Source of the DNA: Halobacteriovoraceae bacterium
GTDB taxonomy: Bacteria; Bdellovibrionota; Bacteriovoracia; Bacteriovoracales; Bacteriovoracaceae
Direction of reading: 5' to 3'
DNA length: 12,530 nucleotides
Assembly (NCBI GenBank): GCA_018663815.1
Contig: JABJPQ010000518.1
Location: 1 to 12,530, forward strand
Shown piece by piece: positions 1,512 through 12,530 of the stretch (the first letter of the stretch is position 1; each line of letters begins with the position of its first letter). Under the pieces are notes generated by a model. It saw only the letters and a list, made by a program, of their open reading frames with translations, searched no databases and had not been told where the DNA came from. The position numbers and the translations under genes were made by a program.

Positions 1512-3734
1512 CTAAATTCGACATTGCTTAAACATTTCCTCGTATTGCTCAACTACTTTTTTCTTAGAAACCATCGGAGTAATACAAATTCCACCGGCAC
1601 AACCTTTATTTTCAAGTATTCCCGCTACACTTAAAAAGTCTTTTGCTTCAGGCGTTCCGGGTGTGATCTCTAAACGTAGCATTTCTTCACCGTAATCCTT
1701 TTCAAGCTTTTGCATGATCTTCTCATCTCCACGAATTCGAGCAAGATTAACACGATTAAGTACTTTTTCATCAGGTATTTCAATCTTGTGCTCAGCTAGA
1801 ACATTTTGAATTCTTGCAAGACGTAAATGTTTATCAGTAAAATCCAGATTTAGTTTTTTAATTTTCTCTGCTAAAATAATTTGATCCGCTTCACCCAATG
1901 ATGAAATCTTATCAGTTAGCTTTAAGTACTCATCTTCAGGTAATCCATCGAACAATGCTTTATGAAATACTTTATTTTTACCCAGTTCACTCTTACCTAG
2001 TGTTTTTCTTCCTTTATTAATCGCTTTGCGAGCACGGTAAGCCTGACCTACTTTAAAGCCAAATGGTGCAGTTGCAAGATCAACCATAAGAAAAGCCCAT
2101 GCTTCCTGGGTTTCAAGCATAGCTTCTCTAGCCTCTTCTTGTCTTTTACTTCCAAGCATAACCAAAGCGTCAAGACTATGGTCCTTAAACTCAAAGTGGT
2201 TATATTCTTTAATAGTCACGGCACCCGTTGCTGCGACAGCGACACCTGAAAGCCATAAACATGGAGGACCACAAACCGTAGAGCCTGCTATACCAAACCC
2301 CATACTTAAGAGAGCTCCACCTATTTGAAAGCCAGTTAACTCTCCTGAAATATCATTTTTTCTCGCCTTTTCAAGAGCTACACAATGTGCTTGTTGAAAT
2401 GATTTTAAGTATGGTGCTAATTGAGTCTTGGGTCCAAATTTTTTCAATGTTGTTTGTAAAAAATCATTCTCAACTTTTTTTACAAATTCAGCGTCTTGTA
2501 TTAAACCTTGTCCTTTAGTCTCACAAATTTTTTCGATTAGCTCATCATTTTTAGTAACTTTATATTTTACTTCATCTTGATAAAGTGATTGAAATTTCTC
2601 TTTAAATGTTGGGTTTTTCTTTAAAAAGTCAGTTATCTTTACTTGAGCAATATCAGCTCCCATTTTATCATCACCAAAAGATTTAATCAGGCTAGCAACT
2701 TCACGCATCAAATCTTTTCCTCCTTCAGTTCTTCTTAGTTTTTTTAAACTATTTTTCATTAATGGTGTTTTTCGAAAATCTCCCATTTGTGTTTCATACT
2801 TAGTCGTTTTTAGCATATTTTTAGCAAAGTTTCCCATTTTATCATAGTGATCGTTCTCCCTAATATACATAGGATCCTTAAATATTAAATCATTAATTAG
2901 CTTTAGCTCTGTTTCACTTTTTTCCTTTAATTTTTCAACGTTATCCATTGTTGTTTTTAATAAATTAGTTTGTTCTTTTTTGTAAATAATACATTTATCT
3001 TTATTATAACTAAGCTTAGCAATTGTATTACACGGTGAAGTCGAAAGTGCTCCCGTCGGTAAATAACGAACCTCACCTCTATTAATATTTTTAATTTTAT
3101 CACCAAGTTTTTTTAAACTTTCATCATAAGCTTCGATGAGACTTTTAAGTTGAGGTCTTTTTTCTACACCTTTTTCCGCAGCAATAAGACCCATCAGCTT
3201 ATTTGATAAAATCAGGTTTCTCGTTTTATCATTAGTAAATTTTTTACGATAATTATCAAATTGATTATCTATATGTCTGATTCTACTACTAATACCAAAG
3301 ATTTCTTTGGAGCAATTATACTCATTACCCATATGCCTATCTTTAAGAGGTAACCTCAGATCAAGCTCATCAAATGGAGCAATTAAATCTCTTTTTTGAT
3401 CAAGTAGTTTAGCTATAGCAACTTTAGCAATGTTGTTTTCAAACTCAAAATGTTTAAAGTCAGTGGATAATTTGAGAATATCCTCTAGAACTGATTCCTG
3501 ATCATTTATTTCCTGCGAATTACATGTTTTAAACTTATGATCTTTTTTACAATACTTTGGGGCTAATTTACCAAACTCATCTTTAACTGCAACTGCGTCA
3601 CTTTCCTTCCCTTTTTCTATCCTCTTATCTTCAACAACTTTTAGTTTTTTGGATTCAAGAGGTTTTTGAGAGACTTCCATAGCGAAGAGTGGGTGAAAAT
3701 TTGAACAGAATAATATTATTAGTAGTTTTTTCAT
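1512..3734 (-). CDS. Large exported cysteine-rich helical protein with a glycine-rich hydrophobic hairpin, unknown function
   Basis: I do not recognise this 740-aa protein. It begins with a Sec signal peptide (residues 1-18, MKKLLIILFC ... PLFA, likely cleaved before MEVS), which fixes the start codon. The mature protein is lysine-rich and mostly helical, with a charged linker at about 20-60 and long amphipathic helices at 150-450. A hydrophobic segment at 465-507 contains two glycine/alanine-rich stretches (GFQIGGALLSMGFGIAG and LSGVAVAATGAV) separated by CGPPC (488-492). A second semi-hydrophobic stretch lies at 545-562. The mature chain has twelve cysteines (62, 71, 141, 235, 248, 404, 451, 488, 492, 712, 717, 738), an even number that suggests disulfides in the periplasm or outside. 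The tail carries GCAGGICI (711-718). It is divergent from the 1149-aa secreted protein and has its own sigma-28 promoter; no Shine-Dalgarno is visible. It may insert into a membrane, but that is inference. Confidence 0.88.
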   Translation of the reverse strand: MKKLLIILFCSNFHPLFAMEVSQKPLESKKLKVVEDKRIEKGKESDAVAVKDEFGKLAPKYCKKDHKFKTCNSQEINDQESVLEDILKLSTDFKHFEFENNIAKVAIAKLLDQKRDLIAPFDELDLRLPLKDRHMGNEYNCSKEIFGISSRIRHIDNQFDNYRKKFTNDKTRNLILSNKLMGLIAAEKGVEKRPQLKSLIEAYDESLKKLGDKIKNINRGEVRYLPTGALSTSPCNTIAKLSYNKDKCIIYKKEQTNLLKTTMDNVEKLKEKSETELKLINDLIFKDPMYIRENDHYDKMGNFAKNMLKTTKYETQMGDFRKTPLMKNSLKKLRRTEGGKDLMREVASLIKSFGDDKMGADIAQVKITDFLKKNPTFKEKFQSLYQDEVKYKVTKNDELIEKICETKGQGLIQDAEFVKKVENDFLQTTLKKFGPKTQLAPYLKSFQQAHCVALEKARKNDISGELTGFQIGGALLSMGFGIAGSTVCGPPCLWLSGVAVAATGAVTIKEYNHFEFKDHSLDALVMLGSKRQEEAREAMLETQEAWAFLMVDLATAPFGFKVGQAYRARKAINKGRKTLGKSELGKNKVFHKALFDGLPEDEYLKLTDKISSLGEADQIILAEKIKKLNLDFTDKHLRLARIQNVLAEHKIEIPDEKVLNRVNLARIRGDEKIMQKLEKDYGEEMLRLEITPGTPEAKDFLSVAGILENKGCAGGICITPMVSKKKVVEQYEEMFKQCRI

Positions 3735-3741
3735 AGATCAC

Positions 3742-3768
3742 TTATCGGTACTTTCATTTATCCCTTTA
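3742..3768 (-). promoter_or_regulatory. Sigma-28 (FliA) promoter of the 740-aa secreted protein
   Basis: Read on the minus strand: TAAA (3768-3765, within TAAAGGGA), a 15-nt spacer, then ACCGATAA (3749-3742). This matches the FliA consensus TAAA-N15-GCCGATAA at all positions except the first base of the -10. Counting seven bases past the -10 puts the transcription start at about 3735, one base before the ATG at 3734, so the mRNA should be essentially leaderless. Confidence 0.85.
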
Positions 3769-3794
3769 GTTCATTTTATTTCTTTCCTTATTTT

Positions 3795-3821
3795 TAAATT
3801 TATTTAACTATTTTCCGATAA
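3795..3821 (+). promoter_or_regulatory. Sigma-28 (FliA) promoter of the 1149-aa collagen-patch protein
   Basis: TAAA (3795-3798), a 15-nt spacer, then TCCGATAA (3814-3821). It has the same spacing and the same single deviation from GCCGATAA as the divergent promoter at 3742-3768. The predicted transcription start is about 3828, the A of the ATG. The two TAAA boxes are back to back, separated by 26 bp of pyrimidine-rich sequence. Confidence 0.85.
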
Positions 3822-3827
3822 AGTCTC

Positions 3828-6800
3828 ATGTTAAAGACTCTTTTCATATTATCATTATTTATCTCTATAGCAGCTCTAAGCCAGCCTCTCTACACAACCA
3901 AGGGAGACAAAGGAAATGCAGCTATTGATGGCACTGACGGTGTAAGTCCTGGTGCCCATGGAGGGCATGCAATCGCTCCAACTGACGCCCAACACTCCGG
4001 TCCAATAACTCTCAATATTCGAGAGGTTAAAGATACTGATGGTAAGCTTAGATTTAAAATCTCAAGTGATATGCGCAATGCGGATGGTACAATTAAAGGG
4101 CAGTTTGATCATTTATTTGAAGTTGATCAAAATGGTTTTATTCTTCAGGATCATACTGGTCTCACTAAACATGTTGAGGAAATAAAGTTTGATTCTAGTG
4201 GAGCAACCTCTCATGGTGGAGGAGATGGAGGGGATGGAAAGAAAGGTCCTAGAGGACCTAACGGTAACAATGCCACTCGTTGGACCAACGGTGAAAGTGG
4301 AGGAACAGGTGGATCTGGTGGTAATGCTGGTCTTGGAACTAATCCTTCCCAAAGTGGAAATGCTGCAAAAACAAATGTAAATGTTCCTCATGATCAGACC
4401 CATCTTCTCATGCACCTTGAAGAGGATTCATCTGGACTTATGGATGGTAATATAAAAGGTGGTGCTAAAACATGGCCTGGAAAACATGGAGTACCAGGCC
4501 AAGGTGGTGAAGGTGGTAGTGGTGGTTCGAGCTACAGCTGGACAACAACAACAAATCATACCCGCTCTGGGTCAGACGGGAAAACTGAACACTACACCGA
4601 AACACATCACCACTCAAACCCAGGTGGAAGTAATGGTTCAAGAGGCCCGAGAGGATTTGCTCAAAACTCAATATTAAGAGACAAACCAGCCGGAAAAAAT
4701 GCTCAAATGGCCATAAATATAACCCAAGCTAACGGAGAAGTAACAACTTATAAAAATGGCCGTTACGATTTAAGTATCGTGCAAGATGCTGAGTATAAAT
4801 CTGCGGCTGCTTATAATGGAATTGTAGATGGTATCATTGAGCCAGATGAAATGGTTAGTGTAAAATACACCATTAGAAATACTTCAGATATGCCTACTCC
4901 TAAACGAGTCGCTCACCTCGCTGTCTTAGATTCTCAGGGTGTAAGATCAACGGATAAAACTCATATCGTGGATATTCCAGAGCTAAAGCCTGGGCAAACA
5001 TGGGTAACCGAGAGCATTTATATCAAGGCTACCTCAGATATTAAACTACCTGTTAAAGGTGATGCTACTGTTGAAAAAGGTAAGCTAACTCCAAGAGTTA
5101 CTCAATCAGGAACTGGTGCTCCAGGTGATGAAAAAGTATATAAAAGAGCCGATAGAAAAACGGGCTTTGATATCCAACAAGCCGCAAAACTTGATGATCA
5201 AGTTGATATCAAAGGATCTAGATCTCTTGTTCCAGGTAGCGAAGAAACATGGGTTGAGATTAAGCTAATTAACAACTCTAATATCAGTGCCATTGGTAGA
5301 GACACAGACACACCGAGACAATTTAGTACGCGCCAACAATTTTTAGCCGTTGATGGCATAGGTCCAGATGATATAATTGTCACCAACGAAGCTGGAAATG
5401 AAATTAGTCTCAAAGAAGAACTTATTGCTGAACATAAAAAAATTCCAAAGGGTGAATCAAAAACTCTAAAGCTTAAAATTAAAATAAAACCAGGAATGAC
5501 TCCGTACTCTAGTGGAAAACTTCAAACAATTCTTAATCGAGGAGCTCTGAATGACTTATTAGGCTCTCAGGATATTCAAGTGCAAGATGTAGAAATACAA
5601 GCGGTTAAACTTTTTGATCCCCACAAAAAACCAGATGTAATCTTGGTAACTAATTCTGAAACTAGTAAAGAAGCTGTTGCCGCTTATAAAGAAAAAATGA
5701 AAAAGCTAGGCAAGGTGGTTGAAGATTATAATATTTCTTATTATTCCGCTTTTGATATTGATAAACCTCCCCTGAGTGAACTTGATTCAAAAAAAACAAC
5801 CATTATGGTTATGAATAATGAATATGGCCCTGAGACACATCAAGCTGGAAACAGGCTTAAATTAGGTCAGACATTAGATGCTGTTCACAATAAGAAAATG
5901 AAAATTATGTTCTTAGGTCCTGGCTCACCAGGATCAGATCTTGCAACTAGATTATCCCCCGCGGTTAAGAAGAAAGAAGATTTAAAGGTTAAAAAACATG
6001 CTTCAAAAAATAAATTTAACAAAGCTCAAAAAAAATCAAAAAGCCAAACCTCAACGATTGCCACTGATAATGCAGATGAAATCCAAGTTAAACAAAGATT
6101 TGTCTATGGAAAAACTAATCATAAGAAATTAAAAAAACAGGCGGAAGCACAAAAAGATCATCTTAATATGATTGATCCCAGGGGACGATATGTTGTGGTC
6201 AGAAGTAAGCATAATGATGGGTACAAACCAACAGGAAATTTCTGGGATGATCTTATGCCAGGATTGCGAAATTTTTTCTCTAGTCGCCCAGTTGGATCTT
6301 ACACCATTTTACGAACAAGTGATATTGATGACTCTGGAGTTAGTAACTTAAAAGTTAGTCAAAAAACCATGAATGATCCTAACTTTATTAAAGGCTATGA
6401 CTTTGAACTTGCTTACATTAAACAATTAGATTTTGAAGAAAAACTTGATCTACTAGATAATTTAAAAGGAACAGATGAGCTCTTTAAAAAAGATAGCGCA
6501 CTTTACAATGCCATTATCTCAGACCTCGCGGAAGAGCAGGCCATACTAAGAGATTCAAAGGATGCAAACCCTCGTAAACTAAAAGAGTTATCTCAATACA
6601 ATTTTAAAAATAAAATAAATCCCGCAACGAAAAAATTTGATTTTTTTGTTGAGCTTTTTTCTGAGTTAAATCACTTAAACATAGTTTCAAAAAAAAGTAT
6701 GTTTAATAGACTTGCCTCTCATAATAAAAAACATCTCAAATATTTCAAAAAAAATTCATCCCTCTTTAAGGGATCTGGTCAAAATAATAAAGACAAATTT

Positions 6801-7277
6801 TTTGATAAAGTTGAAGCTAGAAGTGATGAAAAAATGACTAAACTTAAAGAACAAAGAGCAGAAAACAAAGTAAAAATTAAAGCAGCTAGACATGAACAAT
6901 ACAAAAATCTTCCTTGGTGGAAAAAGCCAATTACAGTTTTCCTTTCGGATCCTGAGCTTGATGGAGATAAAAAAAATCTTCAAGCAACATTACACCCGGT
7001 TGAATCAAAAACATTTTTAATTGAATCTAATAGACAAAGAGGCTTTGGAATAGATATCGGTCGAAATATAATGCCAGAAAACGTTGTTACCGGAGAAGAA
7101 GTATACGCGCGAGAACAACGATCAAAAGCCAATTACGATAATAAAGTAGATGAAAAAGTTGCTTATGAGTCTCATCAAAGAAAGAAAAGTACTGGAAGAG
7201 CCGTCGCAAAGTCTCTTACTTCTGGAGTTAATCACGATCTTAACGAATGCATTTTAAAAGCTTTAACAGGTCATTAA
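3828..7277 (+). CDS. Large exported protein with four collagen-like Gly-X-Y patches, unknown function
   Basis: This 1149-aa protein has a Sec signal peptide (MLKTLFILSLFISIAALSQP, cleaved near 18-20), which supports the start; no Shine-Dalgarno precedes it. The N-terminal third has four short collagen-like runs of Gly-X-Y: 131-148 (six triplets, including GKK GPR GPN), 155-166, 218-235 (GKH GVP GQG GEG) and 267-278 (GSN GSR GPR), plus a degenerate run at 26-40. Predicted beta segments and a His/Thr-rich stretch (238-263) lie between them. Residues 310-600 look like two beta-sandwich domains (CARDB-like pattern, e.g. EMVSVKYTIRNTS 341-353 and SEETWVEIKLINNS 471-484). Residues 603-705 look alpha/beta (DVILVTNS, TTIMVMNNE, MKIMFLGPG). 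A lysine-rich linker (713-740) and a charged helical C-terminus follow. It has one cysteine (1141) and no C-terminal anchor motif. It is probably a surface or secreted fibrous protein; assignment of function is not possible. It is transcribed divergently from the 740-aa exported protein. Confidence 0.9.
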   Translation: MLKTLFILSLFISIAALSQPLYTTKGDKGNAAIDGTDGVSPGAHGGHAIAPTDAQHSGPITLNIREVKDTDGKLRFKISSDMRNADGTIKGQFDHLFEVDQNGFILQDHTGLTKHVEEIKFDSSGATSHGGGDGGDGKKGPRGPNGNNATRWTNGESGGTGGSGGNAGLGTNPSQSGNAAKTNVNVPHDQTHLLMHLEEDSSGLMDGNIKGGAKTWPGKHGVPGQGGEGGSGGSSYSWTTTTNHTRSGSDGKTEHYTETHHHSNPGGSNGSRGPRGFAQNSILRDKPAGKNAQMAINITQANGEVTTYKNGRYDLSIVQDAEYKSAAAYNGIVDGIIEPDEMVSVKYTIRNTSDMPTPKRVAHLAVLDSQGVRSTDKTHIVDIPELKPGQTWVTESIYIKATSDIKLPVKGDATVEKGKLTPRVTQSGTGAPGDEKVYKRADRKTGFDIQQAAKLDDQVDIKGSRSLVPGSEETWVEIKLINNSNISAIGRDTDTPRQFSTRQQFLAVDGIGPDDIIVTNEAGNEISLKEELIAEHKKIPKGESKTLKLKIKIKPGMTPYSSGKLQTILNRGALNDLLGSQDIQVQDVEIQAVKLFDPHKKPDVILVTNSETSKEAVAAYKEKMKKLGKVVEDYNISYYSAFDIDKPPLSELDSKKTTIMVMNNEYGPETHQAGNRLKLGQTLDAVHNKKMKIMFLGPGSPGSDLATRLSPAVKKKEDLKVKKHASKNKFNKAQKKSKSQTSTIATDNADEIQVKQRFVYGKTNHKKLKKQAEAQKDHLNMIDPRGRYVVVRSKHNDGYKPTGNFWDDLMPGLRNFFSSRPVGSYTILRTSDIDDSGVSNLKVSQKTMNDPNFIKGYDFELAYIKQLDFEEKLDLLDNLKGTDELFKKDSALYNAIISDLAEEQAILRDSKDANPRKLKELSQYNFKNKINPATKKFDFFVELFSELNHLNIVSKKSMFNRLASHNKKHLKYFKKNSSLFKGSGQNNKDKFFDKVEARSDEKMTKLKEQRAENKVKIKAARHEQYKNLPWWKKPITVFLSDPELDGDKKNLQATLHPVESKTFLIESNRQRGFGIDIGRNIMPENVVTGEEVYAREQRSKANYDNKVDEKVAYESHQRKKSTGRAVAKSLTSGVNHDLNECILKALTGH

Positions 7278-12352: not shown

Positions 12353-12530
12353 TTACTTCTTCTTAGCTACTTTTTTAGTAGCTTTTTTCTTAGCCACTTT
12401 TTTAGTAGCTTTTTTCTTAGCTACTTTTTTAGTCGCTTTTTTCTTAGCTACTTTTTTAGTCGCTTTTTTCTTAGCTACTTTTTTAGTCGCTTTTTTCTTA
12501 GCTACTTTTTTCTTGGCAGCTTTTTTCTTC
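12353..12530 (-). CDS. Histone H1-like Lys/Ala-rich protein, C-terminal part (5' end outside window)
   Basis: The last 58 residues are present, made almost only of Lys, Ala, Thr and Val: a KKKAAKKKVA lead-in, five tandem KKKATKKVA units, and a final KKK. Such tails are typical of bacterial histone-H1-like or HU-like nucleoid proteins, where they bind DNA non-specifically; that role is inferred because the N-terminal domain lies outside the window. The opposite strand would read as a Phe/Ser repeat with no start. The canonical terminator 22 nt downstream confirms the minus strand. Confidence 0.85.
   Translation of the reverse strand, partial: KKKAAKKKVAKKKATKKVAKKKATKKVAKKKATKKVAKKKATKKVAKKKATKKVAKKK
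12371..12505. repeat. Five tandem 27-bp repeats encoding KKKATKKVA
   Basis: Five in-frame 27-bp units: 12371-12397, 12398-12424, 12425-12451, 12452-12478 and 12479-12505. The last three (towards the N-terminus of the protein) are identical. The first two differ only at synonymous third positions (Ala GCT for GCG, and Val GTG for GTA in the first). This suggests recent expansion by slippage or unequal recombination, with selection on the protein sequence. Confidence 0.95.

Follow-up and report, generated by a model that had tools for sequence, protein, structure and literature searches.

A spacer of 93 bp (25% GC) that separates two divergent long genes of a Halobacteriovoraceae bacterium carries two outward-facing FliA (sigma-28) type promoter sequences, and each of these runs almost up to the start codon of its gene. 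We consider it likely, with a probability of roughly 70%, that they are a pair of FliA promoters fused to the two ATGs, which produce leaderless mRNAs for two exported proteins of the motile, prey-seeking stage. Under this reading the back-to-back promoters would give joint expression, at that stage of a Halobacteriovoraceae-type bacterium, of two proteins that are unrelated to each other and probably exported. FliA-bound RNA polymerase would initiate on the A of each ATG or next to it, and ribosomes would recognise the 5'-terminal AUG of the resulting leaderless mRNAs instead of a Shine-Dalgarno sequence. The pair would then represent one case of family-wide fusions of FliA promoters with start codons, many of them ahead of genes for exported proteins. 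The DNA analysed, referred to here as the window, is one entire contig of 12,530 nucleotides (C168) from a genome assembly of 717 contigs and 3.35 Mb that is about 81% complete. Promoters running up to start codons are the most interesting part of this locus, and a preliminary description had overlooked the short distances, 6 and 7 nt, that separate the -10 boxes from the ATGs. The features of the locus are:

1512..3734, minus strand: gene 1, open reading frame for a Lys-rich protein of 740 aa
3735..3741, minus strand: 7-nt gap (GTGATCT) from the -10 box to the ATG of gene 1 at 3734, no Shine-Dalgarno sequence seen
3742..3768, minus strand: FliA (sigma-28) type promoter of gene 1, exact match; -35 TAAA at 3768-3765, N16, -10 CCGATAA at 3748-3742
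3769..3794, no strand: AT-rich gap of 26 bp between the two -35 boxes
3795..3821, plus strand: FliA (sigma-28) type promoter of gene 2, exact match; -35 TAAA at 3795-3798, N16, -10 CCGATAA at 3815-3821
3822..3827, plus strand: 6-nt gap (AGTCTC) from the -10 box to the ATG of gene 2 at 3828, no Shine-Dalgarno sequence seen
3828..7277, plus strand: gene 2, open reading frame for a protein of 1149 aa

Both sites have the FliA core boxes TAAA and CCGATAA at 16-nt spacing, and this head-to-head TAAA-N16-CCGATAA pair accounts for all exact matches in the entire window. The preliminary description had reported TAAA-N15-(A/T)CCGATAA on both strands, with 26 bp between the TAAA boxes and each site correctly placed for its gene; these elements are present as described, each just upstream of its long open frame. 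Polymerases at the two promoters may share the gap between the -35 boxes as an upstream contact region. Scans of the window with Rfam models and for tRNAs returned nothing.

Extended boxes of sigma-28 in E. coli are TAAAGTTT for -35 and GCCGATAA for -10. The sites had been called near-perfect, which is correct for the core boxes; measured against the E. coli consensus, the extended boxes depart from it on both the minus strand (TAAAGGGA/ACCGATAA) and the plus strand (TAAATTTA/TCCGATAA). We surveyed 99 distinct exact sites in eight genomes (the window organism's own, three of its genus and four of its family), comprising every listed site in six genomes and part of those in G013 and G018. The extension preference is weak among them, position 5 being G in 43% and the base preceding CCGATAA being G in 15%, so the extended E. 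coli boxes do not define the FliA motif in the Halobacteriovoraceae family.

The low GC content of the spacer makes it conceivable that the sites are chance matches in AT-rich DNA. Two exact sites were obtained in none of 200 dinucleotide shuffles of the window; when the spacer alone was shuffled, at least one match appeared in 11 of 20,000 shuffles and two in none of them. A chance origin of the pair was rejected on these shuffles, in agreement with the earlier view that two such sites within 93 bp are unlikely to arise by chance. A whole-genome scan found 16 exact TAAA-N16-CCGATAA sites versus one for the reversed control pattern, and 20 versus three when a spacer of 15 or 16 nt was allowed. 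With one mismatch allowed the counts were 187 and 110; such matches are therefore mostly background, which is the second point in favour of chance and the reason why all family surveys were restricted to exact sites. Weighing the shuffles and the genome-wide excess against these two points, we regard chance as highly improbable. In 23 family genomes (own included) exact sites sum to 282 versus 66 reversed, with G007 alone opposing the trend, while 13 genomes from other families of the phylum give 60 versus 42, so that exact-site enrichment is far stronger inside the family than outside it.

The exact sites are also found where promoters are expected. In the eight-genome survey 78 of the 99 fall outside long frames and have a start codon no more than 200 nt away; among 4000 positions drawn at random from those loci, 504 do. 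Of the genes behind the 78 upstream sites, 48 satisfy a crude signal-peptide rule, versus 191 of the 504 reached from random positions. Ten of the 16 exact sites of the window organism pass this upstream test and six fail it, so some exact sites are background.

The six include a recurrent site at an FHA-like gene (name assigned by eye). An exact site occurs 62-72 nt before this gene in the window organism and in three fetched relatives of its genus (loci L024; L185 and L195, both in G001; L207; L213). In all four genus genomes it sits inside the end of the preceding gene, as a recurrent intragenic FliA promoter would. The assembly with two of these FHA-type sites, G001, also contains two FliA genes (contigs C1 and C20), each 92% identical to that of the window organism, and has 9% contamination; two strains may be combined in it. 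Another exact site lies 38-41 nt upstream of a gene that resembles citrate synthase by eye in two of the four genus genomes (L026 and L217), which may link central metabolism with the swimming stage.

The cognate sigma factor of such promoters is encoded in the genome: a protein of 261 aa matches the FliA model TIGR02479 with 270.8 bits (cut-off 189.6). Its closest named relatives, 92% identical, are from Halobacteriovoraceae bacterium assemblies, in line with the earlier guess that the organism is related to Bdellovibrio. Because fliA is present and the exact sites are enriched and placed before genes, the two window sites are very likely sigma-28 promoters, as first proposed, and the sequence data support FliA control of the window genes well.

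A different factor could nevertheless read these sites, or a sigma-70 promoter could mainly drive the two genes, in which case the FliA-like match would not be a working promoter. Two further proteins are hit by the FliA model without reaching its cut-off, so the genome has other FliA-type sigma factors, and a sigma-70-like site matching at 9 of 12 positions occurs on the minus strand at 3834-3807. Flagellin genes provide another point, since none of the six flagellin matches in the genome has an exact FliA site upstream. In two places (L062/L064 and L066) a one-mismatch site precedes a flagellin by about 125 nt, and L065 has a weaker two-mismatch site, while the unit at L063 has no site within two mismatches; the start of L067 was not placed in this check. 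These upstream sites mildly favour the FliA reading, and only mildly because one-mismatch sites are mostly background genome-wide. A scan for sigma-70 promoters between 3400 and 4200 gave matches at chance level (three found, 2.7 expected), and that candidate was rejected. Moreover, the -10 box in the window is the one published for FliA (PMC3627812), and exact sites in the family are strongly placed upstream of genes. Control by another factor is thus quite unlikely.

In-frame stops directly 5' of both ATGs leave no possibility of an earlier start codon, and inspection by eye revealed no Shine-Dalgarno sequence near either ATG, so that both genes have the ATG start without Shine-Dalgarno sequence of leaderless genes. 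In Campylobacter jejuni sigma-28 boxes are located 6-8 nt before mapped RNA starts, according to the available part of PMC3847290. Given this offset and the gaps of 7 nt before gene 1 and 6 nt before gene 2, the predicted +1 is the A of the ATG at 3734 and 3828, respectively, or a nucleotide next to it, and both mRNAs are probably leaderless. A FliA start so near the ATG would leave no room for a Shine-Dalgarno sequence.

Such short gaps recur in the family. Across 129 family genomes an ATG follows an exact site at 5-8 nt in 244 cases, at 1-4 nt in 76 and at 9-12 nt in 88, although these counts are not independent since related genomes share genes. Among 150 listed of the 244, a gap of 7 nt is the commonest (58), followed by 6 nt (42) and by 5 and 8 nt (25 each). 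In samples of these ATGs, a frame of at least 60 aa was opened by 12 of 17 at 6 nt, 15 of 18 at 7 nt and 5 of 7 at 8 nt (32 of 42 for 6-8 nt together), compared with one of nine at 5 nt and three of 20 at 1-4 nt. At 9-12 nt nine of 20 ATGs also open frames, so this gap class has a soft upper edge. The crude signal-peptide rule fits 20 of the 32 frames with gaps of 6-8 nt, three pairs among which are similar to each other.

These pairs are similar proteins from different genomes (L288/L378, L361/L364 and L272/L367), the first with a lipoprotein-like start containing NCSQK. Their sequences suggest recurrent leaderless-type families of exported proteins.

A similar picture was obtained from the 99-site survey, in which frame-opening ATGs number zero at 0-4 nt, 13 at 5-9 nt and four at 10-14 nt, with 9, 8, 7, 11 and 10 in the following five-nt bins. 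Starts that open frames at 5-9 nt are 13 ATG, no GTG and one TTG. The eighth nucleotide after the -10 box is a purine in 79% of the 99 sites, which fits the expectation for +1, though the ninth (74%) and tenth (70%) are purine-rich too. In a comparison with TATAAT, made to see whether leaderless starts might occur beyond FliA promoters, the gap distribution had a bump at 6-7 nt, and a control word had one at 8 nt in the same data, where many loci are homologous. Taken together, these sequence patterns fit two classes of FliA promoters in the family, one fused to start codons and a larger one with leaders, and both window genes belong to the start-codon-fused class.

The leadered class is the basis for a further alternative, in which the FliA promoters are real and the mRNAs have short or normal leaders, owing to transcription from further upstream or translation from a later start codon. 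In its favour, 59 of the 78 upstream FliA sites have gaps of at least 15 nt, many with an AGGAG-like sequence ahead of the start (by eye). An earlier start codon is excluded by the in-frame stops, however, and the next in-frame Met is residue 19 in gene 1 and residue 82 in gene 2, either of which would remove the signal-peptide-like part of the protein. The lack of a visible Shine-Dalgarno sequence at both ATGs also argues against leaders, and the preference for gaps of 6-8 nt would be unexpected if every such gene had one. We therefore consider leaders unlikely for the window genes and leaderless mRNAs the better explanation.

The preliminary description had proposed that both proteins are secreted. 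By eye both N-termini are hydrophobic and signal-peptide-like, and the crude rule agrees for the 1149-aa protein and does not call the 740-aa protein; the window proteins are probably exported. The product of gene 1 has weak hydrophobic segments between residues 471 and 508, which could form a membrane hairpin, and carries the motif ENKGCAGGIC at its C-terminus. It has no match to a known protein family in Pfam or NCBIfam. Its last 195 residues are 31% identical to an open frame in the genus relative G003. A search with the C-terminal part recovered the fragment itself and a single other protein, P0012, which has 29% identity and may be identical with the one in G003. Within 59 genomes we detected the gene's own copy, the match to its C-terminal part in G003 and, in G002, a short and weak match that contains a stop.

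The product of gene 2 contains a collagen-like Gly-rich region and a long C-terminal part to which no domain was assigned. Residues 333-396 match DUF7932 (PF25560) with 28.1 bits, above the Pfam gathering cut-off of 27; the Pfam entry names no function. No NCBIfam match was found for this protein, and sequence searches against solved structures gave no match for the window proteins. Nine other proteins match gene 2 over 42-100% of its length, the closest (P0002) with 53% identity over the whole length and the remainder with 23-27%. Its profile matches 14 of 129 family genomes (own included), several over the Gly-rich part only, and a pattern scan of named genomes yielded no relatives. In another member of the family, one homologue with DUF7932 (L179:1-6014, G020:C21) is located near flagellin genes with one gene in between. 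At the end of the window a 27-bp tandem repeat (5.6 copies, 12360-12529) reads on the minus strand as Lys/Ala/Thr-rich repeats resembling, by eye, a histone-H1-type tail.

It had also been proposed to see whether both promoters are kept in orthologous spacers; conservation of the two genes as a unit was looked for and not found. At three homologues of gene 2 with a located start (L034 not included) the best match to the FliA motif has three mismatches, and none counts as a FliA-like site. Judging from these sequences, FliA control is not conserved at those three members of the gene-2 protein family. The stretches around these three gene-2 homologues (L177-L179) contain no match to gene 1, for which no full-length relative was found among the best 8000 candidates scored, a number at which a miss is possible. 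Head-to-head exact pairs with 10-40 nt between the -35 boxes occur in three of 129 family genomes, the only two besides the window being L295 (G084:C14) and L296 (G019:C100). One of the two frames in each of these has a 5-7 nt gap, and their proteins have no similarity to the window proteins. Since the layout is rare and the other two pairs are unrelated to the window proteins, the gene pair seems to have been arranged recently or locally and does not look like a conserved module.

The attack-phase connection is drawn from Bdellovibrio bacteriovorus. According to the parts of PMC3627812 available, 92 of 140 mapped attack-phase promoters of strain HD100 carry the FliA motif TTAAG-N16-CCGATA, as the preliminary description had stated in general terms, and FliA runs most of the attack-phase programme there, with surface proteins, proteases and many unknown proteins among its targets besides flagella. 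The gene for FliA could not be deleted in this species, and FliA control of the Bdellovibrio TAD pilus promoter was demonstrated with reporters in E. coli that lacked its own fliA and was supplied with FliA (PMC5430801, in part). In a toolbox paper from 2025, three FliA promoters were robust in attack-phase cells and two others were moderate (PMC12622784, in part). From this species we infer an attack-phase role and timing for the window genes, and perhaps their products are exported proteins of the swimming stage that serve in prey contact.

The locus shares the -10 core CCGATA and a fliA gene with B. bacteriovorus, a member of a different family, whose -35 TTAAG-N16 differs from the TAAA-N16 of the window by one letter or one base (PMC3627812, in part). 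The window locus also differs in that its two promoters stand head to head, each fused to a start codon, with transcription starts predicted from sequence. In leaderless mRNAs of C. jejuni and Helicobacter pylori the ATG likewise lies right behind the -10 box, without a ribosome-binding site, but the -10 box there is that of sigma-70 (TAnAaT), whereas in the window it is that of sigma-28 (PMC3847290, in part). Many targets of the window-type FliA fusions look exported. Among DUF7932 proteins, gene 2 passes the Pfam cut-off as a member, and the three homologues examined differ from it in lacking a FliA site. The word "leaderless" does not occur in the main text of PMC3627812, and we found no paper on FliA-driven leaderless genes in the open-access literature, judged by title or the opening of the abstract.

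The role of FliA as a global regulator of the attack phase rests on work with Bdellovibrio, and its sequence signature now extends to a marine family whose genomes in this analysis are mostly metagenome assemblies. The preferred gap of 6-8 nt suggests that a number of FliA-target genes bypass Shine-Dalgarno initiation. More tentatively, with chances that we put slightly below even, Halobacteriovoraceae and their kin may possess a class of start-codon-fused FliA promoters that delivers exported predation-stage proteins from leaderless mRNAs. If this is true, FliA would tie stage-specific transcription to another way of starting translation, perhaps one that suits non-growing attack cells. The target list is rich in unknown, probably exported proteins, which are candidates for a role in prey contact.
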